Source: a virus. From it: a stretch of 20,394 nt of DNA. The notes under the pieces are model-generated. The model saw only the letters and a list, made by a program, of their open reading frames with translations. It ran no database searches and was not told the DNA's origin. Below are positions 1-20,394 of this stretch, piece after piece. Each line of letters begins with the position of its first letter. The first letter of the stretch is position 1. A program made the translations under genes and the position numbers. The stretch is taken from IMG/VR virus record IMGVR_UViG_3300009593_000161, positions 1 to 20,394 of that record, one strand, 5' to 3'.

Positions 1-1490
1 AATACTTCTATTGAAGCCCAATCTTCGTATGTGTCTCCATTGTGGTGAGTATAGTTTGATAACAAACCAGCTGAATAAGACCATAGTATATAAGTGTCGT
101 TTAAGAAAAAGTTATCATCACCATCTACATCACCAATTAGATATTCAAGAGCAGTTAACGTATCTATTCGTGTACCACCTGTATTATAATTATGATGTTT
201 ACCAGATTGGAAATTAAATGAAGCTATAGCATCGGTTACATTTGTGATAGCCGTTCTATCTACTTCAAAGTGGTCGTGTGTTTCTATATTATCACTAGCA
301 TCAGGTGGCCAGAATGATATACGATATCTATTATTTCTTGGTAATTGTATTTGATAATATCCTTTGTCGTCTGTATAAGTTGAATCATAATAAGAGATAC
401 CTAAGAATCCCTCTTTTGGTAAAGTATGGTCAGCGGTTGATGCGGTATTACCATCAAGAGCTTTTTTATTGTATCTAAATGTTGCTGTGTGGTCACCAAT
501 AACATCATCACTACCATCTTCATCAGCAGTATTAGCATCATTAGCTATACTTTCTAAGTTATACCAATTAGTTATTCTAGGATTAAAGTTGGCTTCATTT
601 TGGTCTAACTCAAATTTTACTTTCCAATATGGATATGTGTTTTCTGCTGGTGCACTCCAAGCAGCTCCAATAGCTCTATCTTTACCTTGAATGTATCTGT
701 AGTATCCTTCAACATCAACAAGTTTTGGGTGTAGAGTTATATCACCACGAGCACCATCTAAGTTAGTTGATTCTGTTCCATAGTTACCATCTATATAAAC
801 TTTATAGTTTACAGCATAATTTCCATTAGTAACGTAAGTATAATATCCTGTATTGTTTTCATATTCTGTAGCTACTCTAAAACTCTGAGGATTAAAGTTA
901 TCAGCTACGTCATCTACTTTAAAATGTAATTTTAATAATTCTTTTTGTACACCATTACCACCACCAAATTTATGTGTACCCACATTGTGAGATACCATTG
1001 TTATTCTTAACCAATCATATCTATTATCACTTGCAGATTTTTCATTACCATTACTAGCTATACCATCAGTATAACCTACGTTAGCATATCTAACTACTTC
1101 ATAAGAATAGTGATGTCCATTTTCTGCATTATCACCTTCAGTCCAACCAACTATATGTGCACCTTTCTCTACGTGAGTTGAGTCGTGAGTCCAGGTAAAG
1201 ATATCATTATCAAATACAATGTCTAAACGAAAGGCACTAACATTTGCAGCATTGTCGTCAATCGTAACGGCAACTGTCATTACATCATCTCTAAAAGCAT
1301 CAAAGTTATTATTCTTATAAGCTGGCGTTGATGTATCATCTGCCAAGTATGTTCTCAAGTCGTGAGTCACTTGGTCTCTCCACCAAAACTTTGGTGTCTT
1401 ATATGTTCTTGACTGCATAAGTCTGATAATCGGTGTTTGAGAATAAGAAAAACTCATTACCAATAACAGAGTTAATAAAAATCTACGCAA
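1..1490 (-). CDS. Exported cohesin/dockerin-like protein (3' end outside window)
   Basis: The frame is open from 1490 to the window edge, giving 496 codons with no stop. I chose the TTG at 1490 because AAGGGAG lies 7 nt upstream (1504-1498) and because it preserves a complete signal peptide: Arg-Arg at 2-3, a Leu-rich core at 5-12, and a Ser-Tyr-Ser/Gln junction at 15-18. The ATG at 1457 would destroy it. Residues about 45-230 resemble a cohesin-type beta-sandwich. Residues about 405-475 look like a dockerin dyad, with a clear calcium loop at 454-465 (Asp at 454, 456, 458 and 465, Asn460, Gly457). The protein is rich in Asn, Asp, Tyr and aromatic residues. It lies 113 nt downstream of the tail operon on the same strand. 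A signal peptide is unusual in a virion protein, so it may be exported by the infected cell. The open frame and signal peptide are seen; the domain names are by-eye similarity. Confidence 0.8.
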   Translation of the reverse strand, partial: MRRFLLTLLLVMSFSYSQTPIIRLMQSRTYKTPKFWWRDQVTHDLRTYLADDTSTPAYKNNNFDAFRDDVMTVAVTIDDNAANVSAFRLDIVFDNDIFTWTHDSTHVEKGAHIVGWTEGDNAENGHHYSYEVVRYANVGYTDGIASNGNEKSASDNRYDWLRITMVSHNVGTHKFGGGNGVQKELLKLHFKVDDVADNFNPQSFRVATEYENNTGYYTYVTNGNYAVNYKVYIDGNYGTESTNLDGARGDITLHPKLVDVEGYYRYIQGKDRAIGAAWSAPAENTYPYWKVKFELDQNEANFNPRITNWYNLESIANDANTADEDGSDDVIGDHTATFRYNKKALDGNTASTADHTLPKEGFLGISYYDSTYTDDKGYYQIQLPRNNRYRISFWPPDASDNIETHDHFEVDRTAITNVTDAIASFNFQSGKHHNYNTGGTRIDTLTALEYLIGDVDGDDNFFLNDTYILWSYSAGLLSNYTHHNGDTYEDWASIEV

Positions 1491-1497
1491 TGTAAAT

Positions 1498-1504
1498 CTC
1501 CCTT
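1498..1504 (-). promoter_or_regulatory. Shine-Dalgarno site deciding a TTG start
   Basis: AAGGGAG read on the minus strand lies 7 nt before TTG at 1490. No comparably placed site serves the in-frame ATG at 1457, so it decides the start of the exported protein gene. Confidence 0.6.
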
Positions 1505-1562
1505 AAATATATGTGTTGATGTAACCTTTTAGAATAAAAAGGGTATAGACTTTATTTCAGTA

Positions 1563-1570
1563 TATAAATA
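1563..1570 (+). promoter_or_regulatory. TATAAATA octamer, possible late promoter (antisense orientation)
   Basis: This is a perfect match to the T4 late-promoter octamer in the short gap between the exported protein gene and the tail operon. It points rightward, into the 3' end of the 367-residue gene on its non-coding strand. The surrounding run of alternating T and A makes a chance match plausible. The minus strand here carries only a TATAAT-like hexamer (1575-1570) that could serve the gene at 1490. Confidence 0.25.
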
Positions 1571-1603
1571 TTATATATATAGGTAAAAATATGTGGATTG
1601 GGT

Positions 1604-2707
1604 TTAATTTGTGTCGAACCTCACTACAAATGTCAAAGCTACTTCTTTGTCATTTTTTATGGGTGTAGCTAACTTACCGATTGCTACTAATTCTTCTTCA
1701 TCATTATATAGACCTATTGATGTTACATATGGTGAGAAAGCTGAGTGGGTAGCTTCACCAATTAGTTCACTACCAATCTCATAACCATTAGAGTTATAAG
1801 AACTTGTAGCAAATCCGTGTAGTAGATAAGGGTAATTATCATCTGATGATTTATCATCTGGGTTGGCTTGGAAAGGACTCATACCAGCACTACCACTTAA
1901 ACCTACTTTAAGTGTCCTATTGGTAGTGTGTACAAACTCATTTTCATCGACAACACAAGTATATTCTCGTTCATATATTGTCTGAGTTGAGTTAAATCTA
2001 ACTTGAAAACCATCACTACCATTACCAGTAGCAACGCTAGAATAAAATGAACCAGTATCTGTCAATACAACAATACCGTCATTATAAAAAATATTACCTA
2101 TGAGACTACCACTATTATTCACATCAGGTTCTCTCAAAGAATAACTACTTGAATAAGCAGTATCATATAAATTACCATAACCATCATCTCTTATAATAAT
2201 AGTAGAATCAGTTGAGTCATCTGTCAGTCTGAAAGAATTTTGTTCAATTTTTTCACCGAATAATTGTTGTGGTATTGAAATGACTGTAGCTGTATCGTGT
2301 AACTGTCGTGTAAATGGTTTAATATATGTACGTGATGTAGTCGAACGTAAAACACCATCTAAACCTAATTGTGGCACAGGTTGTGATGATTGATATTCAA
2401 ATGCTGCAACCGATGAAGTCGGTACTCCATTTAACAAATCAACATAACCTCTCATCTGACTTATATCACGATAATAAATTGTATTGATTGAATGCCAACT
2501 TGGTGTTTTGTAAAACGTGTTACCTGAGATGGTAGTTGATGTTGCTGTACTTGTTGAAAAATTATTCAAATTAGAAGCTGTCCCTTTGATTAATGGTATA
2601 GAATATATACCACTACCACTATCAGCTTCTGTGAAGGTGAATGTTTTATGAACCTCGAATGAAGTTATAGATTTATTTTCCGGTTCAAGGCTTTTCTTGA
2701 AGGACAT
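1604..2707 (-). CDS. Tail/receptor-binding-type structural protein, paralogue 1
   Basis: This is a 367-residue Ser/Thr/Gly-rich beta-type protein of unknown function and the last gene of the tail operon. Its final 40 residues carry a Gly-Leu-Tyr-Asn-Asp-Glu-Glu-Glu-Leu segment, then Ala-Ile-Gly-Lys-Leu and an Ala-Leu...Phe-Asp ending. This block is almost the same as the C-terminus of the gene just upstream (2718-3731). The stop codon of that neighbour lies inside the strong AGGAGGT ribosome site used here, so the two are coupled. Position after the baseplate wedge genes suggests a fibre, tip or adhesin component. The shared end and coupling are seen in the sequence; the role is inferred from context only. 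Confidence 0.75.
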   Translation of the reverse strand: MSFKKSLEPENKSITSFEVHKTFTFTEADSGSGIYSIPLIKGTASNLNNFSTSTATSTTISGNTFYKTPSWHSINTIYYRDISQMRGYVDLLNGVPTSSVAAFEYQSSQPVPQLGLDGVLRSTTSRTYIKPFTRQLHDTATVISIPQQLFGEKIEQNSFRLTDDSTDSTIIIRDDGYGNLYDTAYSSSYSLREPDVNNSGSLIGNIFYNDGIVVLTDTGSFYSSVATGNGSDGFQVRFNSTQTIYEREYTCVVDENEFVHTTNRTLKVGLSGSAGMSPFQANPDDKSSDDNYPYLLHGFATSSYNSNGYEIGSELIGEATHSAFSPYVTSIGLYNDEEELVAIGKLATPIKNDKEVALTFVVRFDTN

Positions 2708-2717
2708 TTAGTACCTC

Positions 2718-3731
2718 CTAGAAATCAAGTTTGACTTTAATTAATGCCTCACGAGATGTAGTTTTCAAGATTGGTTGACTTAGTTTAGCAATTGCTATTA
2801 ACTCTTCTTCATCATTGTAAAGACCTACAGTTGTAATGTAAACTCTTGGGTCTGTAGCTAATCCACCGATTGTCTCTTTGATACCCTCAACTGATTCAGT
2901 ATAAAAAGTTTCATTAGTTGTACCATTGAAATCACCAGCTGTAGCTCTTACAAAGAAATGTCGTGACGCTACTTCTTCTTCTCTTTTTGCTTGAAAGTAA
3001 GCTCCACCACTAATCGCATTATATAACTTTCTAGCATTTCTTGAATCGTTGTTAGACGTACGAACTGTTGATTCAGCACCTATAAAATGACCATCAATTC
3101 TTAAAGGATTTAAAAGTATGATACCTAGTGATGGGTAAAAATTACCATATGACCCTGAATCTGAATTTGTAGTAGCTGCTTCTGCAGTACCTGCTGCTAT
3201 TGTACCACTAACAACATTATATTCTGGTGAAAAGTTTCTAGCATTACTTGTACCTGCTGGGAAATCTGAAGAGTCATCTTTTAACTTCACGATACCTTTA
3301 CTACCACTTAAATGAAGTTCCCAACCACCTGGTTCAATTTTATCTCTCATTCTAGCTCTGTTAAAACTTAGAGCATAAAATTCTTTACTTGTAGTGTTTG
3401 CACTAAATACAAATCTTTGAGTTTGAGGTGGATTTATCAGTTGATTAAACTGACCAAATACAGCTGCTGTAGTTCTATCACCTGTAGCACCTGTTACACC
3501 TAGTGAACCACTACCTTCTACGTGTCCGTATGCTAAACCAAACTGAATAGATGCTGATGCATTGTTCGCTGGGTTGTAACGATATATGTCAACATTGTAA
3601 TCACCTGTGTTAGTATATTGTGTTGATGAAGTAAAGAATGATGTAATACTAGATGCCCCATCTTGAAATAAACCCGATGTTACAATTGCATCATCTTGTA
3701 CTTTATCAGTTGTACTTAAATTTTTAATCAT
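2718..3731 (-). CDS. Tail/receptor-binding-type structural protein, paralogue 2
   Basis: This 337-residue protein has low sequence complexity (Ser, Thr, Gly, Ala, Asn) and no signal peptide. Residues about 294-337 form the same C-terminal block as its downstream neighbour: Thr-Val-Gly-Leu-Tyr-Asn-Asp-Glu-Glu-Glu-Leu-Ile-Ala-Ile-Ala-Lys-Leu, then Pro-Ile and a basic/hydrophobic ending in Lys-Leu-Asp-Phe. A Gly-Ile-Ile-Leu-Leu-Asn patch in mid-protein has a similarly placed Gly-Ile-Val-Val-Leu-Thr patch in the neighbour, so the pair probably arose by duplication and diverged outside the C-terminus. AAGGA lies 8 nt before the ATG. A virion role near the baseplate tip is inferred from operon position. 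Confidence 0.75.
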   Translation of the reverse strand: MIKNLSTTDKVQDDAIVTSGLFQDGASSITSFFTSSTQYTNTGDYNVDIYRYNPANNASASIQFGLAYGHVEGSGSLGVTGATGDRTTAAVFGQFNQLINPPQTQRFVFSANTTSKEFYALSFNRARMRDKIEPGGWELHLSGSKGIVKLKDDSSDFPAGTSNARNFSPEYNVVSGTIAAGTAEAATTNSDSGSYGNFYPSLGIILLNPLRIDGHFIGAESTVRTSNNDSRNARKLYNAISGGAYFQAKREEEVASRHFFVRATAGDFNGTTNETFYTESVEGIKETIGGLATDPRVYITTVGLYNDEEELIAIAKLSQPILKTTSREALIKVKLDF

Positions 3732-3742
3732 TTTTTATTCCT

Positions 3743-4348
3743 TTATGATACGTCAGCAACAGTTTTATTTTGTCTGACAGTAGTAGTTGCTGCTGGGTCT
3801 TTTTTCACAGTCACAACAAGTGTTTTTACTAACATACTCTTATTACCTCTGACAGTAACAGTAGTTGATGCACCACCCTCATCTGAGAATGATTGAGCTA
3901 CTAAGATTGCTTGCTTAGCATCTCTTAATGTAGCACCTTTTTCATCTTGAAATTGTATAACACCTCTGTTAGCGATAAAGAAAGTATATGTTTCATCAGT
4001 ACCACCGTCTGTATTTGGTGTGATTGTTGGTTTATCACCAACTACCAAACCAGTTACTGAAGATGCTTGACCTAAAGTAAGCTTTCTACCTTGTAGAGAA
4101 GTATCAATTAAAAAACTATTAAAGTCTGTTCTGTTAGGAGCTGCTTCTAAAATAGACATATTTTCTATCACAGCACCATATGAATCACTTCCGTTTGGGT
4201 GAGTCACATCGTATAGCGTATAATCTATCTCTTCATCACTCAAGGCAAACTTTGTAATGTTTAAGTCTCTACCTTTTGAAAGAAGTTCTCTACCTCTTTT
4301 TGTTAATATAGCATCTACTGTAACAGTAGAATTGTCTAAAAATCCCAT
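3743..4348 (-). CDS. Conserved phage structural protein (MGFLDNS-type N-terminus)
   Basis: This 201-residue protein begins Met-Gly-Phe-Leu-Asp-Asn-Ser followed by a Leu-Thr-Lys-Arg-Gly-Arg-Glu-Leu-Leu segment and, near residue 30-45, Lys-Phe-Ala-Leu-Ser-Asp-Glu-Glu-Ile-Asp-Tyr. I associate this N-terminal signature with uncharacterised structural proteins of environmental marine phages, from memory and without a search. The C-terminal third is Thr/Val-rich. TAGGAG precedes the ATG. It sits between the large wedge protein and the two paralogous tip proteins, which fits an adaptor or fibre-base part, but no function can be read from the sequence. Confidence 0.75.
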   Translation of the reverse strand: MGFLDNSTVTVDAILTKRGRELLSKGRDLNITKFALSDEEIDYTLYDVTHPNGSDSYGAVIENMSILEAAPNRTDFNSFLIDTSLQGRKLTLGQASSVTGLVVGDKPTITPNTDGGTDETYTFFIANRGVIQFQDEKGATLRDAKQAILVAQSFSDEGGASTTVTVRGNKSMLVKTLVVTVKKDPAATTTVRQNKTVADVS

Positions 4349-4373
4349 TATATGCTCCTAATTGAATTGATTT

Positions 4374-4403
4374 GTGATATAACTTTTCAAAAATAAATAT
4401 CAC
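4374..4403 (-). other. Inverted repeat in the leader gap between two tail genes
   Basis: GTGATAT and ATATCAC flank a 16-nt spacer, giving a 7-bp stem in the 76-nt gap after the 201-residue gene's start and before the stop of the next upstream gene. No T-run follows on the minus strand, so it is not a standard terminator. It could be an RNA processing or stability hairpin, or chance in A/T-rich DNA. Confidence 0.3.
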
Positions 4404-4424
4404 TTTAGTAAAATTTTAATTAAT

Positions 4425-7400
4425 TTATATGCCTTTATTCTTCTCAAGTACTTTTAAGTTACTGTCACCAGCATCAAACGGTACAGCTACTGACGGTGCT
4501 GTGACTCTAACAACAACTGGACTATCACCATCGGTTGTTGAATTTTTAGTATTTTTTACACCCTCATAAAAACTTCTATTCAAACCTAAGATGAACTGAT
4601 ACTCTGGGTCTACATCTGTAGATACTAATGACTTTGATGTGTATAAATTTTTATCTTTTGTGACTGATATCTTATCACTCTTATCAAAATCATTTGAAGA
4701 AGTGTAATGAAATTTATATTCTTGATTGTGTACTGACAATCTATTTGAATCAATATATGCACCTGTTGGTTCACTATATACAGACTTTGGACCGTTGAAA
4801 GTTACATCACCATTTATATACCTATTTCTATCTTCAAAATTATCGTTTGCTGCAAAATTGTATAGTGCCGGTTCGTGTAATTCTTCATTAGATATTGTAG
4901 CAATATAATTTGGATACTCACCCTTAGGTAATACTACTGACCTACTGTCTTCGTGTTCAGTATCAAAGTTAGATACGTTTATAGTATCACTATAATCTAA
5001 TTGAGTACGAGATGGTTTATTTTTTTGTATAAGTGATTTAGGTCTTTCAAAAATATTACCTTCAATTAAAGTACCCATTTGTACTTTTGCTCTTGCTGGT
5101 ATAACTTTTCTTAATTGTTTAAATACTGATTGGTCATAATATTTTATCAATCTTATATAATCAAATAAATTATTATTACCAGTATATTTTTGAAAGTATA
5201 CATCTGCTACATTTTTTAGACCTCTGTAAGATTCAGAAAAATCATCACGTGGGTCACCAAGATATTGATTAAAATCAAGACTAGCAAATGATGATATAAT
5301 ATCTTCATTAATAACATCAACTGGTGAAAACATTACACTAAGTCTTGGTGAATCTAATGGTGCTGTATCATTAGAGCTAAAATCATATCTATCATCAATA
5401 CTTAAATTTGCACCACTACCACTTAGATAATTGTCTTCTATTCTAATCTTTGTAGCCATTCTACGATTCGGACCACTGTTAGGTATAAGTGTTTTTGTCT
5501 TATCAACAACTGATTCAAATGTATTAAGACTACCAAAATGATTAGCACTACCTGATTGTGTAGTTGTTTGATTTGGTCTTGTATCTCTTATTGAAGCACT
5601 GTTAGTCAAAACTTTGTCATCATCAAATTCGAGTCTTCTTACGAGTGTTGTGAACGAAGATGTTTCTTGATTACCTATGTATGATTTTGGTCTTGCCACG
5701 TGTACGTCAAATTTGTCTTCATCAAGAGGTTCTGTCCATAATCTGAACTCCATCATTGAACCAGTTAACTTACTACCAAATGGTGTTGTGTCATTACCAC
5801 CAATATATAAATCACCACTACCTGACCAAGCTGCATTTAATGAATGTGAAACTGCATTACTACCAGAGTTTATCACCATACTAGCTTGTGATGATAAACG
5901 TATTGAATCGATACCAGAATCATATTGTTTTACGAATAAATCGAACCTATATGCTTTCGTTATATCGTCTGTTGCCGTATCTATTTTGTAAACAGATACA
6001 TCGTCCCAATAAATTTTAGATGCAGCTCTATTGTTATCAAACCTTACACCAAGACCACTTGTCTCACCAAACTTAATCGTTTTACGAACTTGTACTTGTT
6101 TCCATTCAGTTTCGTTTATACCAACTATTTCAGAAAATTTAATACCACCTGGGTCAGCACCTTCATCTTCGTGTGCCCAATCTACTACTTCACCACTTGA
6201 GTTCAATTCAAACAAACCTATACTACATGCAGAATCTTCCATACTTGCTGAAACTTTTGCGTGAGCTGTAAAAACATATGTCTCACCTTCAGATACATCA
6301 GCAATACTTGCTAATAGATTTGGATAATTTTTATTATCATTTTGATATAAGTACGAATAAGATGTTGTGAATAAACCACCATTAACTGACGTACCACCAA
6401 CAGGATGATTATTTCTATGTTCTAAACTTTTACTACCTATCTTAGCAACACCTGAACCACTAGCTATTAGAACCTGACCATACTCAGCACTTGGTGTACC
6501 AGGTATAAAAGGTGGATTTACAATCGAACTTGTCTCAAAAGATGGTGTTGGAAAAAGATTTGTTTGTATAGCACTTCTTTTCAACATTACTGAACGATAG
6601 TCACCATCATATATTGGTAGAAGTGAAGAACTTATTTCTTCATAGCCACTTGAACCGGATAACATAAATGAAACCGTACCGTTGTTATCACTTGAATTAT
6701 TATTTTTTAATCTTATTGCCCATCGGTTATCTTTTTGTACTAGAACTTGATTTGAACCTGATAGAGCTCTAAATCTAAATTCAACAGTTTCAGGTTTTCT
6801 ACTTGTTATGGAGTCATCTTCCCAAGGTGTCTCAACATATTGTGAACTTCTAAAACCAAGAGCTTTTGTAAATTTACGACCTATTTCAAATGTAGGTTTC
6901 ATATTATTTTTTTGTATACCACCATATTCACGAACTCTTAAAATAGAACTTGGTATACCATAACAATTCAGTATAGCTTTTAATGAACCTAATGTACCCT
7001 TACTTTTTAATATATAAGGCATACTTGATATTAATCTTTTTGTAATTTCTTTAGATATGTCACCTTCATTCGGTGATTCAAGTGAACCAGAAGTATACAA
7101 TGAATATGATGAACCTTCTAACTTTTGACCAAAACCAACTCGACTTAAATCTAATAAATCTTTACCATCATTGACTGACCAACCTAAAGAAGCAGCTAGA
7201 TTAAATAATAATTCTTTTGAAAAACCTTCATCAATATCATTTTGTCTATCTGTTATATCTGATAATGCTTTTGTGTATAACCACAACTCATCAAATTGTT
7301 GACCTACCATATCTATAAAATCTAAGAAGTAACTATTATTGACATCTTCTCTAACATATTGTGGTAATAAATTAACGAGTCTATTTGGATTTTCTGTATC

Positions 7401-11654: not shown

Positions 11655-11657
11655 TTA

Positions 11658-13601
11658 TTAATCTCCAGTTGCTAAGTTATCACCAACAACTTTACCTTCA
11701 ATATCTGTGTTGGGAAATTTCACTTCAAAAATACTTGGGTCTAATGCTGTATACAATATACCATCTATAATACTTTTTTCTATATTGAAAAAATTACCTG
11801 AATAACCTTCTGCTACTTTGTATTTAGTTTCTATAACAACAGGTAAATTTTTTGGGTTATTTTTTTCAGGTGGTACAACACTTGCGACACCGTCAATTAA
11901 AGAAAGTTGATAAGCAATGTCTGCTAAAATAATTGGTTGACCGATTTGCCATCTATTAATATCAAAGAAATTTTTCACTGCTGACACACATCTTAATAAG
12001 ACATCATTCTTATTAAAACCAATCTTAGTTAAAATAGAAAACTTTACACCAATATTAATAATGTAAGCATCTTTTATATTGACAGCATCAGTAACTAATC
12101 TAAATTGAGATAGATAAGTTTTTAGATTTTCTTTTACAGTATTTGTCAAAACTGTTAATTGACCAGTTGGGTTTAAACCTAAGGTATACATATTTAAAGC
12201 TAAGGGATTATTAACAATTTTATTCTTAGCATCTTCATCATCAAGTTTTGTAATTTCTAATTGTTCGTCTTGTACCATATGTACTTTAGCAATGTTACCA
12301 AATCTTTGAGGTAATGCATATGCTCTTACAATATAATCTTCCTTTGTTACAGCTCTACTTTGTGCTTGATAGTAAGCTAATGCACTTTCACGAACTTCTC
12401 TAACGCTTTGACCATCACTACCACCAGTAGCTGGTTTCACGTTTACAAATGATACAGAATCTTTTGATTCTTGTACAAGTGTTGATGATAGATTATTATC
12501 TTGAATTTTAAAAGATATAGAACTAACAGCTGATATATCACCGGATGCTACGTTGTCTTCAACACCACCACCATAAGAATATGTTATTGATAATGTTGTA
12601 TTAGAAGGTGCTTGACCGAATGCTTTTGTTTTTAAAAAATTACTAGGGTCAAAAGCTTCACCTAATTTACTTGGACTACCTGGTAAATTAGAACCAACCA
12701 TATCTGGGTTTGGTATTATTTCTTCATCTGGATTATTACTAGTACCTGCTCCAAATCTTAAAATAGTTTCATCGTCTTTATTTATATATGTTGTAAATCT
12801 ACGAGCTGTCTTTTTAAGTTTTAAAATATAAGGTGATACTTCTCTATGAATAACAGCTGTTGGAGTATTATCAACATTATTTTCAATTTCTTCAAATATT
12901 GTATCTCTAGCTAGAGAATCAACTTCAGACCAACTATTACCATCACTATCTGTACAAGATATAATTTCTATAACATCTGAGTTAGCTAATTTGATTTGAG
13001 AATATTTTTCTGGTGAACTGAAAGTAAATTGTTCAGTAATAATAGTACCACTTTCTGCTTTGACTTTTTTCTTTAATAAAAACTTAGTTGGAGCGCCACT
13101 ATCAGTTTCAAATATTTCTACATCTCTTGAGTCAAAAGAACTAGAGAATTTAAAGTTTACATCTTCAAGTGTTCTAAAAACTGTCCCATTACTTTTTGCA
13201 GTGACACGAGACCCAGCATCAACTGTCAACGCATATCTAAAATCTGGTTCTTCATTCAATGCCGGTACTGTTTGAAATACATCAAGAATAGTAGTAGCTG
13301 CAGTTGTTGTTTTTGGCTTGTAACCAAATGATTGAGCTATGTTATATACATTTCTTTTTTCTTCAGCATATGCTAAAAGAGACTCTCTGAATTGTGAATC
13401 TATGTAGTAAGAAAGAACATCACCAACATAAGCAGCCATTTCAATAAACATCATACCAGGTGAAGATTCATTAAAATCATTATAAGTATTTGGAAAATAT
13501 TGTTTTGCAAAATCGATTAAGTTATCTCTAAAATCACTAAAGTCTTTATTGAGATAGTTTACTTCTTTTACAACATTCTTTTTTACACTTGTTCTAGCCA
13601 T
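11658..13601 (-). CDS. gp6: Baseplate wedge protein, gp6 / baseplate J-like
   Basis: At 647 residues this is close to T4 gp6 (660). The N-terminus has the hallmark Asp-Phe-Arg-Asp-Asn-Leu-Ile-Asp-Phe-Ala-Lys, then Ser-Ser-Pro-Gly-Met-Met-Phe-Ile-Glu-Met-Ala-Ala-Tyr-Val-Gly-Asp-Val (46-62) and Tyr-Tyr-Ile-Asp. This is the helical region that in this family precedes a long beta part. The J-like domain includes Arg-Glu-Ser-Ala-Leu-Ala-Tyr-Tyr (404-411) and Arg-Ala-Val-Thr-Lys-Glu-Asp-Tyr (416-423). The C-terminal third has the wedge-type segment around Ile-Gly-Gln-Pro-Ile-Ile-Leu-Ala-Asp-Ile (553-562). gp6 forms the inner ring of the baseplate around the hub together with gp25. TTAGGA lies before the ATG and the gp25 stop (TAG) falls in that site, coupling the two. 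Confidence 0.92.
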   Translation of the reverse strand: MARTSVKKNVVKEVNYLNKDFSDFRDNLIDFAKQYFPNTYNDFNESSPGMMFIEMAAYVGDVLSYYIDSQFRESLLAYAEEKRNVYNIAQSFGYKPKTTTAATTILDVFQTVPALNEEPDFRYALTVDAGSRVTAKSNGTVFRTLEDVNFKFSSSFDSRDVEIFETDSGAPTKFLLKKKVKAESGTIITEQFTFSSPEKYSQIKLANSDVIEIISCTDSDGNSWSEVDSLARDTIFEEIENNVDNTPTAVIHREVSPYILKLKKTARRFTTYINKDDETILRFGAGTSNNPDEEIIPNPDMVGSNLPGSPSKLGEAFDPSNFLKTKAFGQAPSNTTLSITYSYGGGVEDNVASGDISAVSSISFKIQDNNLSSTLVQESKDSVSFVNVKPATGGSDGQSVREVRESALAYYQAQSRAVTKEDYIVRAYALPQRFGNIAKVHMVQDEQLEITKLDDEDAKNKIVNNPLALNMYTLGLNPTGQLTVLTNTVKENLKTYLSQFRLVTDAVNIKDAYIINIGVKFSILTKIGFNKNDVLLRCVSAVKNFFDINRWQIGQPIILADIAYQLSLIDGVASVVPPEKNNPKNLPVVIETKYKVAEGYSGNFFNIEKSIIDGILYTALDPSIFEVKFPNTDIEGKVVGDNLATGD

Positions 13602-13609
13602 TGTTTATC

Positions 13610-14035
13610 CTAAGAAACTGTTTCAAAATAAGTTGTATCAATTAACACTTCTTGTGTCGTTCTACTATTAAGTGTTGTATTGTATTTAACTTTTACATAA
13701 ATTTTATTTTTATTATCATCTTGTGTCAAAGTTTCAACAGAAATTATGTTAACGTAAGGTAACCACGTATTAACACTTCTTCTAATTTCTTCTTCAATTT
13801 TATTCGGTAAATTGTCATCTATTTGCTCGAAAATAAATTCTCGTAATCGACTACCAAACTCAGGTTGTGATACTCTTTCACCAACACTCGTTAATAATAA
13901 ATTTGTGATATTATATTGAGATTGTTCAAGTGAAGTTTTAGTCATCTTAAAATCTTGATTGTTACCATTTTTTAATGGTAAAGATAGACCAATATAAACA
14001 TCTGGATTTAAGTCATTTTCGAGAGCTGATGCCAT
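13610..14035 (-). CDS. gp25: Baseplate wedge protein of the GPW/gp25 family
   Basis: This 141-residue protein has the usual length and arrangement of the gp25/GPW family. The core is Leu-Leu-Leu-Thr-Ser-Val-Gly-Glu-Arg (46-54), then Pro-Glu-Phe-Gly-Ser-Arg-Leu (58-64), Phe-Glu-Gln-Ile, and a helix leading to Trp91-Leu-Pro-Tyr. The final 40 residues form the strands that end the fold. In contractile tails this protein joins the sheath to the wedge and nucleates sheath assembly. Its start overlaps the stop of the 146-residue gene (TAATG), and gp6 follows directly, the same W-J order seen in P2-like phages. Confidence 0.95.
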   Translation of the reverse strand: MASALENDLNPDVYIGLSLPLKNGNNQDFKMTKTSLEQSQYNITNLLLTSVGERVSQPEFGSRLREFIFEQIDDNLPNKIEEEIRRSVNTWLPYVNIISVETLTQDDNKNKIYVKVKYNTTLNSRTTQEVLIDTTYFETVS

Positions 14036-14475: not shown

Positions 14476-14484
14476 AATAACTCC

Positions 14485-15639
14485 TTATTTTTTCAAGTTT
14501 TTTAGTTTATCTTCGACTGAAAGTTTTTTAATATCTGGTGTACTAGGTATCTCAGGTAATTCTGGTACTTTGAAATCTGATTTAGGTATCTCTGGTATTT
14601 CAGGTAACTCTGGTCTTTCTGGTATTTTAAAATTAGGGTCTGCAGCTAATACTTGTTTATTTAAAAAAGTTTGTTTAGTAATTGAATCTTTTAATCTTAA
14701 AATTTTATCAATTAGTTTTTTTGCTTCAACTATAAAAACTGGTGGATTTGCTACTAATACCATTACCTTTTGTATATCAGTAAATAAAGTCAAAACATCA
14801 GATTGAAATTCTAATAGTTTTTCACCATCAATAGTTGGTATCATTGGTGCTCTTGGGTCACCCATTTTAATAGTTTGTTTTTCACCTGGATTTAAATTAA
14901 TACCTTTACCAGCTCGAATCTCCACATCTCTTTTTTTACCACTACTGATTCTAACATTCTTTCTTCCATTAATAAGTATATTATCAGATTGAATTATAAC
15001 ATTTTTTCCCTCTATCGGTTCACCGTCAAACGAACCATCCATACCATCAGAAGTTAAATAAATTGAACTATCGTCATTTTGTATATTTGGTTTTTCTAAT
15101 TGTTCGTCAACACCATCATTTGTACGAATATGTATGATTGGTTTTTGTTCTTTATTTTGTGAAAAACAAATAGATTGTCCAGTTCTACCTTCAAATAAAA
15201 TACAACCTGGTTCGATAGTTACAGCGTTTTGATTTTTAAGTTTGAAATCATCTAATTCAATTGCACTACCTAATCTACTTGCTATATTATTATTAGGTAC
15301 ACCTTTTTCATTTACTATATCAGTATAATAAAACTCACCGTCTATTTCAGTAACAAATACTTTTTCACCTGCAACCGGTACAGTTATTTTATGTGGTGAT
15401 AATGGTTTGACATTACTTACTACATTACCAGTCTTAGTAAATGTACCTGTGATTGAACCCCTACTGAAAGGTACGTTCATAGTAACTTCATCAACAATTA
15501 CAGTTTCATAATCGTGATGTATAACATTACCTGCGTTGATAGATTGTCTAATTTGTCTATCTATCTCTGGTCCTTTTACAAACTTGTCAGGTAAAGGGTT
15601 TGGTGGATATACATTTGTTGGCTTTTCGTTATATGCCAT
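14485..15639 (-). CDS. Baseplate spike-like protein (gp5/gpV type) with Pro-rich tail
   Basis: Residues about 50-115 of this 384-residue protein resemble the OB-fold of central spike proteins (Ile-Thr-Val-Pro-Val-Ala-Gly-Glu-Lys-Val-Phe-Val). Residues about 135-260 are short repeating strands with Asn/Asp/Gly turns (Ile-Leu-Ile-Asn-Gly-Arg, Val-Arg-Ile-Ser-Ser-Gly, Ile-Arg-Ala-Gly-Lys-Gly), as in a beta-helical needle. A helical segment follows (about 273-330), then a Pro/Glu repeat at 340-370 (Pro-Glu-Leu-Pro-Glu-Ile-Pro, imperfectly repeated). No lysozyme domain is visible, unlike T4 gp5. The gene lies just before gp25 and gp6, where P2-type clusters carry the spike gene V. Family membership is moderately supported by position and fold pattern. 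Confidence 0.72.
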   Translation of the reverse strand: MAYNEKPTNVYPPNPLPDKFVKGPEIDRQIRQSINAGNVIHHDYETVIVDEVTMNVPFSRGSITGTFTKTGNVVSNVKPLSPHKITVPVAGEKVFVTEIDGEFYYTDIVNEKGVPNNNIASRLGSAIELDDFKLKNQNAVTIEPGCILFEGRTGQSICFSQNKEQKPIIHIRTNDGVDEQLEKPNIQNDDSSIYLTSDGMDGSFDGEPIEGKNVIIQSDNILINGRKNVRISSGKKRDVEIRAGKGINLNPGEKQTIKMGDPRAPMIPTIDGEKLLEFQSDVLTLFTDIQKVMVLVANPPVFIVEAKKLIDKILRLKDSITKQTFLNKQVLAADPNFKIPERPELPEIPEIPKSDFKVPELPEIPSTPDIKKLSVEDKLKNLKK

Positions 15640-16038
15640 TTAATTTTCCAATGATGATGTTTTCTCTATTTTACTTTGAATTTTATCGTTTTCAACTTGT
15701 ATGTCTTTGACAGCATCCTCGAGATTAGTCATAAGTTGATTTTTTTCATCGTCAGATAAACCAAACTCGTCTTCTGAAGATGCTCTTTGTTCTGCGGAAA
15801 TAAGACGCTGAACAATACCTGCCATCTTAACAAGTTGGTCATCATTCCTAACGTTGATTTCAAGATACTCTTTTATCATAGGTACGATTTGAACTGCAGT
15901 ATCACCGTCTTTTATGAACTGAACTAGTTCTTTAGTTAAGACATCAAGTTGTTTTTTATTATATTCTGTGTTATCATAAATATCTTTGAATAGTGAAGAA
16001 AGTGATTTTCCATCAAAGATTTCGTAATCAATAGCCAT
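15640..16038 (-). CDS. First gene of the baseplate operon, conserved small protein
   Basis: This 132-residue acidic, mostly helical protein begins Met-Ala-Ile-Asp-Tyr-Glu-Ile-Phe-Asp-Gly-Lys-Ser-Leu. Later come Pro-Met-Ile-Lys-Glu-Tyr-Leu-Glu (53-60), Asp-Asp-Gln-Leu-Val-Lys-Met-Ala and a C-terminal Glu/Lys/Gln coiled-coil-like stretch. I associate this pattern with uncharacterised proteins near spike genes of marine myoviruses, from memory. It follows the divergent regulatory gap, abuts the spike gene directly (its stop is adjacent to the next ATG), and would be the first product from the leftward TATAAATA promoter. A tail assembly or chaperone role is possible. Confidence 0.75.
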   Translation of the reverse strand: MAIDYEIFDGKSLSSLFKDIYDNTEYNKKQLDVLTKELVQFIKDGDTAVQIVPMIKEYLEINVRNDDQLVKMAGIVQRLISAEQRASSEDEFGLSDDEKNQLMTNLEDAVKDIQVENDKIQSKIEKTSSLEN

Positions 16039-16096
16039 AGTTTACCTAAATGTTATTACTTAATAATAAATATGTACTACTTTAAAAATAGTAATA

Positions 16097-16104
16097 TATA
16101 AATA
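16097..16104 (+). promoter_or_regulatory. TATAAATA late promoter facing the 73-residue gene
   Basis: This is a perfect T4 late-promoter octamer in a non-coding gap, with the start codon of the only plus-strand gene 106 nt beyond it. A gp55-type sigma is encoded 430 nt away, so the recognising factor is present. The A/T-rich setting reduces certainty. A transcript from here would first cross the terminator-like hairpin at 16149-16188. Confidence 0.5.
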
Positions 16105-16138
16105 TATATTGAATCAAATAATTTATTAACATTATAGT

Positions 16139-16146
16139 TATTTATA
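16139..16146 (-). promoter_or_regulatory. TATAAATA late promoter for the baseplate operon
   Basis: Read on the minus strand, this is a perfect T4-late octamer 93 nt upstream of the first baseplate operon ATG (16038). It faces the plus-strand octamer at 16097-16104, so the two early transcripts would overlap by roughly 20-30 nt. It is the only perfect octamer I noticed in a non-coding position pointing into the long leftward operon, which supports it as that operon's promoter. Confidence 0.55.
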
Positions 16147-16188
16147 GAGGTTACTCGGTTCTGTAAAATTACTGAGTGACCTTTTTTT
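16147..16188 (+). terminator. Intrinsic-terminator-like hairpin upstream of the 73-residue gene
   Basis: GGTTACTCGGT (16149-16159) and ACTGAGTGACC (16171-16181) form an 11-bp stem with two G-U pairs and an 11-nt loop, extendable by two or three A/G-U pairs. Seven T residues follow (16182-16188). It works only in the plus direction. The position 22 nt before the ATG of a same-strand gene means it could attenuate the leader, or act as a 5' stability hairpin on a late mRNA. Confidence 0.65.
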
Positions 16189-16210
16189 CTAACTAACGGG
16201 AGAAAACCAA

Positions 16211-16432
16211 ATGAAGGAAGTCGTAACACAAGTCAAAGGATATGTTGATGATTTAGCTCATCTATTAATGTCTTTTGTAGCTATCGGTGCTGTATCTGAA
16301 GTAATCTTTGGGTCTGGTATCTTTGGCGTTAATGTTATAGGTAACCTTACATCCATCATTAATAAGTTCGGCGAGTCGGGTTTCGCTGGGCTTGTCGCCT
16401 TGTTGGTGTTGGTGGGTTTATTTCGAAAGTAG
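16211..16432 (+). CDS. 73-residue two-helix membrane peptide, sole plus-strand gene
   Basis: GGGAG lies 9 nt before the ATG. The 73-residue product has a hydrophobic stretch at about 16-38 (with Ala/Phe/Val/Ile and Gly-Ser-Gly) and a second at about 57-71 (Gly-Phe-Ala-Gly-Leu-Val-Ala-Leu-Leu-Val-Leu-Val), joined by a loop containing Asn-Lys-Phe-Gly-Glu-Ser, with a basic Phe-Arg-Lys end. That is compatible with a small holin, an inner-membrane modulator or a virion membrane peptide; I cannot choose among them. The gene is opposite to all its neighbours and bounded by hairpins on both sides. From 16367 to about 16416 it uses G/C-rich codons (TTC GGC GAG TCG) unlike the rest of the window. Confidence 0.75.
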   Translation: MKEVVTQVKGYVDDLAHLLMSFVAIGAVSEVIFGSGIFGVNVIGNLTSIINKFGESGFAGLVALLVLVGLFRK

Positions 16433-16469
16433 GACCGAAATAGTCTTATATTTCCTACAAGTGTAAGAC
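16419..16469 (+). ncRNA. Candidate structured RNA: two abutting hairpins with complementary loops
   Basis: Hairpin A pairs TATTTCG (16419-16425) with CGAAATA (16436-16442) around a 10-nt loop. Hairpin B starts at the very next base and pairs GTCTTATA (16443-16450) with TGTAAGAC (16462-16469) around an 11-nt loop, with one G-U pair. Loop A contains GTAGGA (16429-16434) and loop B its exact complement TCCTAC (16453-16458), allowing a six-base kissing interaction. The gene's TAG stop is inside loop A. This may be a 3' UTR stability or regulatory element; no known RNA family is recognised. Confidence 0.45.
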
Positions 16470-16472
16470 ACA

Positions 16473-16502
16473 AAAAAAGGGAAGTGAAAGCTTCCCTTTT
16501 TT
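16473..16502 (+). terminator. Bidirectional intrinsic terminator between convergent genes
   Basis: AAAAAAGGGAAG and CTTCCCTTTTTT form a 12-bp stem around a 6-nt loop, with the T-run on whichever strand is read. It ends the plus-strand 73-residue transcript and the leftward block that finishes with the late sigma gene at 16534, so one element serves both. Confidence 0.85.
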
Positions 16503-16533
16503 GTTTATAGTAAATGTGAGATTTATATCGTAA

Positions 16534-17256
16534 TCAAAAAATTGAACCTGTATTAGTAGTGTCGATATTACCAGTAGTACTAAACTCTTCTACCATATTA
16601 TAGTAGTAGTTTTTCATTTGATTAATAACACGAGTGATGTGTTGAGTGTTAGAACTTGTCATCTCACGAATCATAATATAAAGAGCTTTTTTATTAAAAT
16701 TCTCTATATTTTGTCTACGTCTAAATATTTCTAAAACTGAATCTGCAACAAGAATATCTTTTTGTCTTTTAAAAATATTAGTAATATTATTTTCCCAATA
16801 CTCTAACATCTGTTCTACAAACTCACCATAATATTCAGTAACTTCACCTGTAGTAGCTTCCCCATTTACATCACGATTAAAGTCAAGTACAGAAATATCA
16901 TCTTGAGATTTCATTTTTTTATAGTTGTTATTATTATTTAGAATCAAATAATTTTTACCAACTACAGAAAAATATGAAAAGGCTCTACCTTTATCAGGTC
17001 TATACTTAGGCATTTGCATTACGAGAAAAGAAACAACCTCATCTTTTACATCTTTAAAAGAATAATCAAAATAATAAAACTTAAAAGTATGAATCAGATT
17101 TTCAGCTAATTTATCAAAAGCAGCTGCAATCTCTTTACTATAAATTTCATTTCGTACAACAGGACTATCACTATCATTGTATCGAATGATTGCCTCTTGT
17201 ACTGGTGTACCAAAATATACTTTACTTTTTTTACGTCTTTTCTTAACTGCGGGCAT
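16534..17256 (-). CDS. gp55: Late-transcription sigma factor, T4 gp55-like
   Basis: This 240-residue protein is longer than T4 gp55 (185). After a basic N-terminus (Lys-Lys-Arg-Arg-Lys-Lys), residues about 38-108 match sigma region 2 as found in gp55: Phe-Asp-Lys-Leu-Ala-Glu-Asn-Leu-Ile, Asp-Val-Lys-Asp-Glu-Val-Val, and Lys-Tyr-Arg-Pro-Asp-Lys-Gly-Arg-Ala-Phe-Ser-Tyr-Phe (84-96). Residues about 190-222 look like a helix-turn-helix that T4 gp55 lacks. The end (Thr-Gly-Ser-Ile-Phe) is hydrophobic, where T4 gp55 has its clamp-binding tail. It should direct host RNA polymerase to TATAAATA promoters such as those at 16.1 kb. GGAGAG precedes the ATG, which overlaps the 87-residue gene by 14 nt. Confidence 0.85.
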   Translation of the reverse strand: MPAVKKRRKKSKVYFGTPVQEAIIRYNDSDSPVVRNEIYSKEIAAAFDKLAENLIHTFKFYYFDYSFKDVKDEVVSFLVMQMPKYRPDKGRAFSYFSVVGKNYLILNNNNNYKKMKSQDDISVLDFNRDVNGEATTGEVTEYYGEFVEQMLEYWENNITNIFKRQKDILVADSVLEIFRRRQNIENFNKKALYIMIREMTSSNTQHITRVINQMKNYYYNMVEEFSTTGNIDTTNTGSIF

Positions 17257-17506
17257 TGACTTGCTCTCCTCTAAATTGTTCTAATTGTTTTACTGTATCT
17301 TGTATTTGAGAAAATACTGCTCCAACTTCATCATCAGATTTGAAGGCGCCTGACTCATCTATATTTTCTAATTCTGTATTTACTTTATTTACTTGACTTG
17401 AAAAATTCTCTACCCAAGTTTCTAAAGTCTCTACTTTTCTTGTTAAGTTAAAAGTTGTATATGCAAATGTTACTGCTATACAACTTGCTATTATTTCAAG
17501 TACCAT
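17243..17506 (-). CDS. Small membrane-anchored coiled-coil protein beside the late sigma gene
   Basis: This 87-residue protein has an N-terminal hydrophobic helix (about 2-17), Lys/Glu-rich heptads at 21-50, then Ser-Asp-Asp-Glu-Val-Gly-Ala-Val-Phe-Ser-Gln-Ile (57-68) and a second short helix. Small proteins with a helix followed by an Asp-Asp-Glu-x-Gly-x-x-Phe patch next to gp55 are familiar to me from marine myoviruses, without a known function. The gene overlaps the gp55 start and follows the HD gene by 2 nt, with GGAG before its ATG. It does not resemble the T4 late coactivator gp33, though its position would fit a transcription partner. Confidence 0.65.
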   Translation of the reverse strand: MVLEIIASCIAVTFAYTTFNLTRKVETLETWVENFSSQVNKVNTELENIDESGAFKSDDEVGAVFSQIQDTVKQLEQFRGEQVNARS

Positions 17507-17508
17507 TA

Positions 17509-18324
17509 TTATTCTCCAAACAGTTCGTTAAATAAATCTTTAGATTTTTTTGAAAGAACATCAGGTGTTTCTTTTTTCTCTACAGCTTGTTTTATTCTTT
17601 CAACTTTTTCAGCTTCTTCTTTTTCTCTAACACCTCTAAGTTCTGGATTAAGAACTTCATCATAGTTTATTTCTGAATCTTTACTGAACATATACTGTTC
17701 TTTTTCCCAACGAGTTGCTAACATATCAGCTTGATGTAGTAGGTACGGTAAATTAGTTTTTAAATTCTTAGCTTCACCATATCCCATATAATATCCTTTG
17801 TTCGCTTCTTCATACATACCATCAGTAAGTCGTAAAGCTAAATATTCTACTTCACTCATCTTAATATCAAACTGACTTAACAACCATACAGACCTATCTG
17901 TAACAGTCATATAATGAACTCTATTATCATACTCATACATCTTACCTTGATTCTTTCTATGCCACTCTGATTCATTTGGTATATAATAATCAAAATCCAT
18001 ATTACCAACTTTACCTAAGTCGTGATGTAAAGTACAGAAAATAATTTCTTCTTCACTATATTCATCTGTATGTAGACCAAGTTCTTTATATAACTGATAA
18101 GTTTTTAAAGCAAATCTTGTAACGTTTAATATATGACATATATAACCACCTGGAAATGCATTGTGATAATACACGACTCCACTTGCAGGTGCAAACATCA
18201 TTCTATCTTTAAAATAGTCATACATTTTTAAAATGTTATCTTTACGTTTACCTTCAAACGTATCATTAATTAATTCAATTACTTCATTCCATTTGTCTTG
18301 TAATTGTTCTGGTGTTAATTGCAT
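17509..18324 (-). CDS. HD-domain metal-dependent phosphohydrolase
   Basis: This 271-residue protein has an HD-superfamily signature: His64 in Gly-Gly-Tyr-Ile-Cys-His-Ile-Leu, the pair His101-Asp102 in Leu-His-His-Asp-Leu-Gly-Lys, and a distal Asp200 in Leu-His-Gln-Ala-Asp-Met-Leu. These are the metal ligands of the fold. HD enzymes of this kind remove phosphate from nucleotides or cleave cyclic nucleotides, but the sequence does not reveal the substrate. The C-terminal 45 residues are a charged helix. A strong AAGGAG lies before the ATG, 9 nt after dpdA. Its place in the nucleotide-modification block suggests it acts on a nucleotide pool or a signal such as (p)ppGpp, which is inference. Confidence 0.8.
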   Translation of the reverse strand: MQLTPEQLQDKWNEVIELINDTFEGKRKDNILKMYDYFKDRMMFAPASGVVYYHNAFPGGYICHILNVTRFALKTYQLYKELGLHTDEYSEEEIIFCTLHHDLGKVGNMDFDYYIPNESEWHRKNQGKMYEYDNRVHYMTVTDRSVWLLSQFDIKMSEVEYLALRLTDGMYEEANKGYYMGYGEAKNLKTNLPYLLHQADMLATRWEKEQYMFSKDSEINYDEVLNPELRGVREKEEAEKVERIKQAVEKKETPDVLSKKSKDLFNELFGE

Positions 18325-18333
18325 TATATCTCC

Positions 18334-19515
18334 TTAAAAGAAATCGTGATTTGAATTAGTTAAGTCAACTCTAGTATTGCTTAATCTCTTGAATAATGGT
18401 TTATACTTCTCAAAAGTTTTTCTAGGATTATCACTTTTAACCATTTCATCAATAGACTTTAACAACTCTCTCATATCTTTTGACAATACTTGTTCTTTAA
18501 TATAATCGTGACTATAAACATAGTACTCAGCTTTTTCAATTGCTTCTTTAAATAACATAAAGTTATGTAAACGAATTGCCATTGTACATTGACCCTGCCA
18601 CTCTACTGTATCGTCCCAAGTTAATGCATCAGATAAATACTCTCTGTCAAACTCAGTTGATATTGGTAAATGTTTTGGTTCTAAGTCTTTAAATGACTCA
18701 TCATACTTCGGTACATTGATAGAAGTGAATGCTGGTTTTTTAAAATTATAACCTAGATAATAAGAACCAAATACTACTGCTCTATCTGGTGAAGAACTAT
18801 CAGTAGTAACAACGACATTAGAGTCAACTTCATTTAAAGATTTTTGTAATTGATTCAACATTAAAAAGTCTTTTACTTTTGAAATACCTAAGATATGAAA
18901 ATATTTATTTGTTTCTTTTAAATGTTCACCACCTTGTAGTAATGACATAACACCAGACATAAATGTGAAGATGTTTCTACCACCACCACCGACAGCCCAA
19001 CCTTGAAACGGATAATCTTTCATTTCATTGTACCAGTTTATATACTCTACATCATTCGTACCTTGTACAACATTTAAGAAATCAGTTTTACCTGATTGAT
19101 TATCTGCAAAGTATTTAAAGTTGTCTTTACTAATTTGTAAACATTCTTCATACATACCTTCGTATTTAATCTTCGGAGGAATATCTAAGTTCAAAGCAAT
19201 ATCAGAATTATGTTCTAACCAATTGAAAATTCTATCTCTAATAGAGATATCCCATTTGATTGCTCCAGATGCAATTTGATAACCACCAGAGTCACCCATA
19301 ACAAGATTTTTATCAGTAAGACCTAAATCATTTCTGTAATCTTCTTTTTTAAAATGATGACCTGCTGTAATTAATATATCAGTATGTCTATATCGTTCTG
19401 GAAATTCTTCACTATAAAATCTGATAGATAAATCGTTTTTTAATTTAACATTCTTTGCTAATGAACTACCCATAGCTCCAGCTGAGAACGATGGGAAATA
19501 TATAAATTTACTCAT
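18334..19515 (-). CDS. dpdA: DpdA-like DNA 7-deazaguanine transglycosylase
   Basis: The fold signature of tRNA-guanine transglycosylases is clear in this 393-residue protein: Gly-Asp-Ser-Gly-Gly-Tyr-Gln (74-80, Asp75 as general base), Asn-Leu-Asp-Ile-Pro-Pro (109-114), Trp-Ala-Val-Gly-Gly-Gly-Gly (173-179, the phosphate/base loop) and Thr-Thr-Asp-Ser-Ser-Ser-Pro-Asp-Arg (237-245, Asp239 as the nucleophile). The CxCxxC zinc cluster of tRNA enzymes is absent: only Cys125 and Cys310 occur, though Arg-Leu-His-Asn (315-318) recalls the zinc-site helix. Phage DpdA proteins swap guanine in DNA for a 7-deazaguanine such as preQ0. Placement after folE and the phosphoribosyltransferase, with ATGA overlap, fits DNA rather than tRNA modification. 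The exact base inserted cannot be told. Confidence 0.85.
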   Translation of the reverse strand: MSKFIYFPSFSAGAMGSSLAKNVKLKNDLSIRFYSEEFPERYRHTDILITAGHHFKKEDYRNDLGLTDKNLVMGDSGGYQIASGAIKWDISIRDRIFNWLEHNSDIALNLDIPPKIKYEGMYEECLQISKDNFKYFADNQSGKTDFLNVVQGTNDVEYINWYNEMKDYPFQGWAVGGGGRNIFTFMSGVMSLLQGGEHLKETNKYFHILGISKVKDFLMLNQLQKSLNEVDSNVVVTTDSSSPDRAVVFGSYYLGYNFKKPAFTSINVPKYDESFKDLEPKHLPISTEFDREYLSDALTWDDTVEWQGQCTMAIRLHNFMLFKEAIEKAEYYVYSHDYIKEQVLSKDMRELLKSIDEMVKSDNPRKTFEKYKPLFKRLSNTRVDLTNSNHDFF

Positions 19516-19910
19516 TTTAAATAATCCTGTATTTCTTCTGAATCTTCAGTTTCCCAAGGATAAACAATCCACTTGTCTCCTTTATCAATAACTGAATAAT
19601 CTGGTTTAACAATACTTTGTTCGTGTTCGTGAATAGTAACAATATAACTCTTGTCGAAAGTCTCTTCATAGAACTTTAAAGTTTCACCTGTATCTGCTAT
19701 ATCATCAATAACAACAAAGTCATCAAATTCACAATCAAAAGGATTTTCTATATACGGTAAATCTAACTTATGACTCAACATCACAGCTAGTATGACTCCA
19801 CCTCTTGGTATACCATACACACCTTTAAAATCTTTTTTAGTTTCTTTGAGATGAAAAGCTATATCTGTAACAGCCTCATCAATCACATTCCAACTTACAA
19901 ATTCTTTCAT
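19512..19910 (-). CDS. Purine-type phosphoribosyltransferase
   Basis: This compact 132-residue type I phosphoribosyltransferase has the pyrophosphate loop Gly-Ile-Pro-Arg-Gly-Gly-Val-Ile (33-40) and the PRPP-binding motif Phe-Val-Val-Ile-Asp-Asp-Ile-Ala-Asp-Thr-Gly-Glu-Thr-Leu (65-78). It also has a C-terminal Trp-Ile-Val-Tyr-Pro-Trp-Glu (114-120), typical of xanthine/hypoxanthine-guanine enzymes. It would join a purine base to PRPP to make a nucleoside monophosphate. It overlaps folE and dpdA by ATGA on both sides, so its substrate probably belongs to the same pathway: either guanine released by DpdA or a deazaguanine base. Substrate choice is inference; the enzyme class is well supported. 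Confidence 0.88.
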   Translation of the reverse strand: MKEFVSWNVIDEAVTDIAFHLKETKKDFKGVYGIPRGGVILAVMLSHKLDLPYIENPFDCEFDDFVVIDDIADTGETLKFYEETFDKSYIVTIHEHEQSIVKPDYSVIDKGDKWIVYPWETEDSEEIQDYLK

Positions 19911-20394
19911 TTTAAATCCCTTATAAAGTTATAAAATTCTTCTTTTGCTCTAGCTGTCTTTTTAAACGCTCCACTTAACTTAGCAGTTTTCATAGTCGCA
20001 TCGTGTTTAACACCACGAATACAAGCACACATATGGTTAGCTTCTACCATTACAGCAACACCAATGTTTTCTTCACATACATCGTGAATGTGGTCGTGTA
20101 CTTGCATTGTCAAGTTCTCTTGTACTTGAGGTCGTCTAGCATAAAACTCAACAATACGATTTAGTTTACTAAGTCCAATAACTTTACCGTTTGGTGTTGG
20201 GAGATAAGCTACGTGAGCATTACCAACAAAAGGTAAATGATGATGTGAACAAAATGAATGTAATTTAATATTACCTTGAAACACCATACCATCATAACCA
20301 TTAATATTATCAAAAGCTGTTATCTTAGGTGGTTCAGAATATACACCTTCTGCTAAATCATTAACAAAAGCCTTAGCAACTCTCATCGGTGTAT
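19907..20394 (-). CDS. folE: GTP cyclohydrolase I (5' end outside window)
   Basis: The frame continues past the window edge: the two codons before the Met at 20386 spell Thr-Pro, completing the Thr-Pro-x-Arg-Val-Ala-Lys motif that lies inside this family, so that Met is not the start. Numbering from it, the zinc/catalytic segment Cys46-Ser-His48-His49-His-Leu-Pro-Phe matches the GTP cyclohydrolase IA site. Ser-Lys-Leu-Asn-Arg-Ile-Val (73-79) and Asn-His-Met-Cys120-Ala-Cys-Ile-Arg-Gly-Val follow, supplying the last zinc ligand. The product, dihydroneopterin triphosphate, feeds folate or, more likely beside dpdA, preQ0 synthesis. QueD, QueE and QueC are not in the window. The stop overlaps the next gene by ATGA. 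Confidence 0.95.
   Translation of the reverse strand, partial: TPMRVAKAFVNDLAEGVYSEPPKITAFDNINGYDGMVFQGNIKLHSFCSHHHLPFVGNAHVAYLPTPNGKVIGLSKLNRIVEFYARRPQVQENLTMQVHDHIHDVCEENIGVAVMVEANHMCACIRGVKHDATMKTAKLSGAFKKTARAKEEFYNFIRDLK

Follow-up and report, generated by a model that had tools for sequence, protein, structure and literature searches.

The window, by which we mean the whole 20,394-nt stretch of DNA analysed here, is a fragment of a viral metagenome record and part of a marine contractile-tailed phage. It encodes components of the contractile-tail baseplate, and no integrase is seen within its 20,394 nt. The features discussed below are collected in Table 1. The conserved 240-aa protein, one of the markers with which relatives of this phage were gathered, has no match in Pfam or PHROG. 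A hydrophobic 73-aa ORF, holin-like in appearance, lies on the plus strand (16211-16432), opposite to and between two minus-strand genes, and has nine conserved counterparts among the ORFs of ten relatives.

Table 1. Features of the window
Feature	Position	Strand	Remarks
Whole window	1..20394	.	GATC absent, CATG almost absent; remaining palindromes ordinary
Sole CATG	6226..6229	.	Inside the 4425-8711 gene; GCA TGT, Ala-Cys
Baseplate wedge protein (gp6/J-like)	11658..13601	-	PHROG 6 and 219; family-tree gene
Baseplate wedge gp25	13610..14035	-	Pfam PF04965, 3.3e-13
Conserved 240-aa protein, no assigned function	16534..17256	-	Marker for gathering relatives
HD-type phosphohydrolase-like	17509..18324	-	PHROG 28876 and 5889; adjoins dpdA; anchor for the DpdA presence/absence test
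DpdA-like TGT-fold protein, 393 aa	18334..19515	-	GDSGG(F/Y)Q motif; tblastn, AlphaFold2, Foldseek
Phosphoribosyltransferase-like	19512..19910	-	Between dpdA and folE; Pfam PF00156, 4.4e-6; PHROG 8995, 2.7e-20
GTP cyclohydrolase I (FolE)	19907..20386	-	Pfam PF01227, 7.5e-47; first preQ0 pathway step

Genes for guanine modification

The DpdA-like protein shows tblastn matches to phage TGT-domain proteins, and its GDSGG(F/Y)Q motif is invariant, being conserved in 45 relatives. An AlphaFold2 model derived from an alignment of 45 sequences (pLDDT 92) points to a TGT fold: Foldseek searches with this model recovered a TGT (E 1.3e-10) and the DNA preQ0 insertase DpdA (7ui4, E 2.9e-9), the latter with a TM of about 0.5 and 14% identity. 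A DpdA profile gave no match among the sequences of solved structure chains. Of the preQ0 pathway genes, folE is present in the window, and folE, queD, queE and queC are present in a relative, G001 (53.7 kb), in which QueD, QueE, QueC, FolE, the phosphoribosyltransferase and DpdA are encoded in a row. The DpdA of this relative is 87% identical to that of the window, and its QueC, QueD and QueE score below the curated NCBIfam cut-offs. Given the predicted TGT fold of the DpdA-like protein and this gene row, we conclude that genes for 7-deazaguanine DNA modification are present in the group. The first-pass annotation of the window had spoken of an apparent guanine modification; this holds at the level of genes and fold (DpdA-like protein and FolE in the window, QueC, QueD and QueE in the relative), from which the phage DNA itself may be expected to carry modified guanine.

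Depletion of GATC and CATG in the window

A program count yielded no GATC and a single CATG in the 20,394 bases, the same numbers as those of the first-pass annotation. The G+C content is 31.4% rather than the approximately 33% given there, and the mononucleotide expectation is 57.6 for each word. The maximal-order Markov expectation is 68.6 for GATC and 52.5 for CATG, and no further 4-mer palindrome is depleted to a comparable degree. Its remark that neighbouring words are plentiful was likewise correct (GATG 69, CATC 174, GTAC 79, AGCT 83). A scan of 4-mer palindromes, gapped palindromes and all 5- and 6-mers of the window found no other similarly depleted motif.

To account for coding constraint we performed 1000 synonymous-codon shuffles of the 18.2 kb of coding sequence in the window, preserving both the proteins and the codon usage. 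Coding constraint halves the naive expectation, to 33 and 28 for GATC and CATG respectively as against 69 and 52. Nevertheless, the depletion survives this control, which the annotation had named as one that could overturn its claim: the shuffles contained 33.2±4.2 GATC (minimum 20; z -7.9) and 27.9±3.7 CATG (minimum 13; z -7.2). Thus, both palindromes are far below expectation in the Markov and the codon-preserving models alike, and neither composition nor coding accounts for their absence. The view of the annotation that composition alone is insufficient is borne out by these shuffles together with the common neighbouring words.

The signature of avoidance sits in synonymous codon choice. 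In the window, Asp codons before C are GAC in 14 of 14 cases (elsewhere 75 of 430, 17%), His codons before G are CAC in 20 of 20 (elsewhere 9 of 52), Ile codons following xxG are ATC in none of 37 (elsewhere 43 of 360), none of the 83 Met codons is preceded by a C-ending codon, and Ser following xGA is encoded by AGY in all eight cases. Alignments with related contigs show the same loss site by site: when a near neighbour, L203, is aligned to the window, none of its 15 CATG sites is kept, as against 14 of 30 GTAC and 18 of 47 AGCT sites serving as controls. None of 25 GATC sites of another relative, G007, is kept, and across the alignments of relatives to the window GTAC and AGCT sites are kept at 25-47%.

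Purged words across related phages

We collected relatives with four genes, deduplicated them and compared 89–118 related contigs, with codon-corrected ratios for the 89 that reach 10 kb or more; word counts of contigs are given below as observed/expected. These relatives are metagenomic fragments, and the absence of a gene from a contig is a local statement. GATC is the most often purged word, with a codon-corrected ratio of 0.1 or less in 30 of the 89 relatives and of exactly 0 in 25 of them. The same threshold is reached by CATG in 15, CTAG in eight, ACGT in seven, and GTAC and TCGA in two relatives each. In contrast, AGCT, TGCA and AATT stay at 0.3 or above throughout the 89, and TTAA drops under that value in a single contig. 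Hence the avoided words are specific and lineage-dependent, and palindromes in general are not avoided. Among near neighbours of the window, L203 has purged GATC (0/65) and retains CATG (35/64; 32/36 in the codon-corrected set), whereas G017 is poor in both (3/68 and 4/50). L229, of similar composition to the window, is neutral for both words (GATC 60/58, CATG 36/37). On a tree of the gp6-like baseplate wedge protein, a single gene in a phage group that may recombine, a strict 'purged' label requires at least nine changes of state for GATC and at least seven for CATG.

Depletion of the two words shows a weak positive raw correlation by the codon-corrected ratios (rho 0.25, p 0.019), no correlation by the Markov measure (rho 0.08) and no coupling in tree-independent pairs, where power is low. 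One common cause was considered and rejected on account of this weak or absent correlation and of L203, which purges GATC and keeps CATG. GATC and CATG are purged largely separately, with weak signs of partial coupling, and two agents are thereby indicated. Other words are lost elsewhere in the family: GTAC is absent from L057 (0/23) and L058 (0/37, both by Markov), with GATC at about half its Markov expectation, and ACGT is wholly absent from L082, L164, L166, L229 and L066. The related L164 and L182 have genes for N6/N4-methylase-like proteins on their contigs.

Probable selection by host restriction

We consider it probable that GATC and CATG were purged by selection, the agents being host enzymes, most likely of ordinary Type II restriction-modification (R-M) systems, that cut these palindromes. 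This reading is the best available because the depletion survives codon control, is specific to lineages and switches repeatedly among relatives. Host enzymes would have cut unprotected phage DNA at GATC (DpnII/Sau3AI-like) and at CATG (NlaIII-like), and point mutations, mostly synonymous ones to judge from the codon contexts, would have removed the sites. Lineages of one phage family would purge different sets of words according to the hosts they met, and since the purged set would depend on those hosts, avoidance would turn over among lineages. The first-pass annotation had suggested long exposure to restriction: its reading is borne out in part, namely as selection against two palindromes, and we infer both that a restriction enzyme is the agent and that the enzyme is the host's. 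A published survey offers a parallel: dsDNA phages often lose restriction sites, and near-complete or complete elimination, almost always of orthodox Type II sites, is seen in about one-tenth of viral genomes (PMC6286503).

An unlikely alternative is that the GATC part was driven by agents other than orthodox Type II enzymes. Candidates are methyl-directed enzymes like DpnI, nicking during mismatch repair of the MutH type, and phosphorothioate systems (Dnd-like). GATC is a known target shared by all three, so that the class of enzyme cannot be read from the site. It is also purged far more often than any other word in the family, and mismatch-repair counterselection of GATC has been proposed for enterobacteriophages in work cited in PMC4687349. 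However, this alternative leaves the loss of CATG, GTAC and ACGT within the same family unexplained, and the published survey traced weak avoidance at modification-dependent sites to Type II enzymes sharing their specificity (PMC6286503).

Avoidance and the DpdA pathway

The first-pass annotation had set the avoidance alongside guanine modification. This implied pairing found no support when 34 contigs with a DpdA match were compared with 22 whose sequence covers the region upstream of the HD gene and contains no such match. GATC and CATG are equally depleted in the two sets (codon-corrected p=0.92 and 0.31), as they are across nine edge-disjoint tree pairs, a comparison of low power (p=0.94 and 0.36). 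G003, with no DpdA match in 29.8 kb, is purged of both words (GATC 0/103, CATG 1/73), and L229 has DpdA, is neutral for both and lacks ACGT (0/24). A search for distant DpdA proteins returned 52 contigs, nearly all from phage groups other than that of the window, to which L277 and L279 belong, and the 52 show no such avoidance, with median ratios of 0.92 for GATC and 0.96 for CATG and GATC at or below 0.1 in none. DpdA is thus neither necessary nor sufficient, and was rejected as the driver. Avoidance follows phage lineage and not modification, and the effect of lineage presumably reflects the host. Some of the distant DpdA contigs lack other words: GTAC in L341 (0/57), CATG (0/37) and AGCT (0/36) in L342, AGCT in L353 and L355 (0 in each), TCGA nearly so in L338 and L339 (1/46) and CTAG in L329 (0/16).

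Under selection by host restriction, the 7-deazaguanine (preQ0/DpdA) pathway would act separately and would evidently leave site removal still needed. These observations suggest that modification of the DpdA type is insufficient as a shield in this phage group. The recognition site of PciI, ACATGT, contains CATG. Incomplete shielding by 7-deazaguanine DNA is already known: the preQ0-containing DNA of phage Rosebush is fully cut by PciI (PMC6884629), and when more than 200 Type II enzymes were tried on the DNA of phage 9g, about 29% cleaved it completely or partially (PMC5567051).

A layered arrangement, in which 7-deazaguanine shields a subset of G-containing palindromes (GTAC and perhaps ACGT, as lying closer to neutrality in phages with DpdA) while GATC and CATG stay exposed, with purging as a complementary layer, appears quite unlikely to us; were it true, the purge list of a phage would show where its DNA modification fails to protect. 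Very unlikely, in our estimate, is avoidance tied to the modification as such, whereby GATC and CATG contexts would be lost as they stay unmodified or become harmful once modified. Both DpdA and FolE in the window, QueC, QueD and QueE in the relative and the cutting of Rosebush DNA by PciI would fit such a link, as would the slightly better retention of GTAC in contigs with DpdA than in those without (seven of nine tree pairs, p=0.055). Against it stand the equal depletion with and without DpdA, the purged G003 and the distant DpdA contigs, none of which is purged of GATC.

Candidate enzymes and hosts

A search of 20 contigs, the closest kin of the window among them, found no Dam-type methylase; one of 40 further contigs has such a gene, and it belongs to a distant clade poor in ACGT and CTAG, in which N6/N4 methylases also occur. 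The 77 ORFs chosen to represent the window and ten relatives matched 16 PADLOC families, none of them a restriction-endonuclease family, and there was likewise none among the 25 commonest Pfam families listed for these ORFs. No phage-encoded R-M system was thus found in the window or in the representative ORFs of the ten relatives, which are themselves fragments.

These searches bear on a highly improbable source of the avoidance, a GATC- or CATG-cutting nuclease of the phage itself, used for instance to degrade host DNA, with its own sites purged. R-M systems are known from some viruses, the window covers a fragment of the phage genome, and a PDDEXK_15 protein is present in the relative G001; however, PDDEXK_15 is a generic phage family tied to no site, and the scarcity of Dam-type methylases and lack of restriction-endonuclease families described above speak against such a nuclease. 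Finally, the idea that the words owe their rarity to composition, codon usage or mutation bias, which the halving of the naive expectation by coding constraint might favour, can be set aside with near certainty, as the codon-preserving shuffle rules it out and relatives of similar composition are neutral (L229 for both words, L203 for CATG).

A scan of genomes for the host gave only two MAG matches, at 56% and 42% identity, and no host was assigned. The gp6 protein shows 39% similarity to Flavobacterium phages, and G001 encodes a SusC/RagA-like TonB-plug outer-membrane protein (L107:8965-11682, minus strand) and a PorV-family protein (L105:16842-17762, minus strand), both scoring below curated cut-offs. 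Together these similarities hint weakly at a host on the Bacteroidota/FCB side. Relatives of G022 accounted for only two of 21 PorV matches and gave no clue to the host. Peptide deformylase and Hsp20 are also encoded on the G001 contig, whose outer-membrane and PorV-family genes are unusual phage cargo.

Comparison with known systems

Restriction-site avoidance is a known strategy, and the window is a well-resolved new case of it, not a new kind of system. Like the lytic dsDNA phages analysed by Rusinov et al. 2018 (PMC6286503), it shows near-total loss of short orthodox Type II palindromes, but unlike in those phages the purged set turns over within one phage family and the avoidance occurs alongside genes for a DNA-modification pathway. 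The HF1-like haloviruses are likewise a myovirus group wholly without two 4-mer palindromes, in their case GATC and CTAG, with other palindromes also reduced in a virus-specific manner (PMC7230728). They differ in being archaeal, in having CTAG in place of CATG as the second purged word and in that most of them encode an N6 methylase. With the 7-deazaguanine phages 9g, CAjan and Rosebush (PMC6884629, PMC5567051) the family of the window shares the FolE-QueD-QueE-QueC-DpdA set (here in G001), a TGT-fold DpdA and its presumed anti-restriction role; unlike in them, the modified base is here predicted from genes, and the family also purges sites.

The family thus offers a natural experiment, in which at least six 4-mer palindromes have been purged in different lineages of one marine phage family, with and without the DpdA pathway, in an abundant and poorly known marine group. 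Where a phage lacks an assigned host, its purge list could be used as a fingerprint of the restriction systems of that host. By the baseplate wedge protein the nearest named relative, at 47%, is Microcystis phage Mel-JY01 (PP395634; about 176 kb; L262-L264, L125), with Microcystis elabens as the recorded host. Like the window it has no GATC (0/363), and it also lacks CTAG (0/143); unlike the window it keeps CATG (227/489 by Markov) and encodes a DNA methylase. This phage, a tractable isolate, also carries a gene annotated 'major paralogous domain'.
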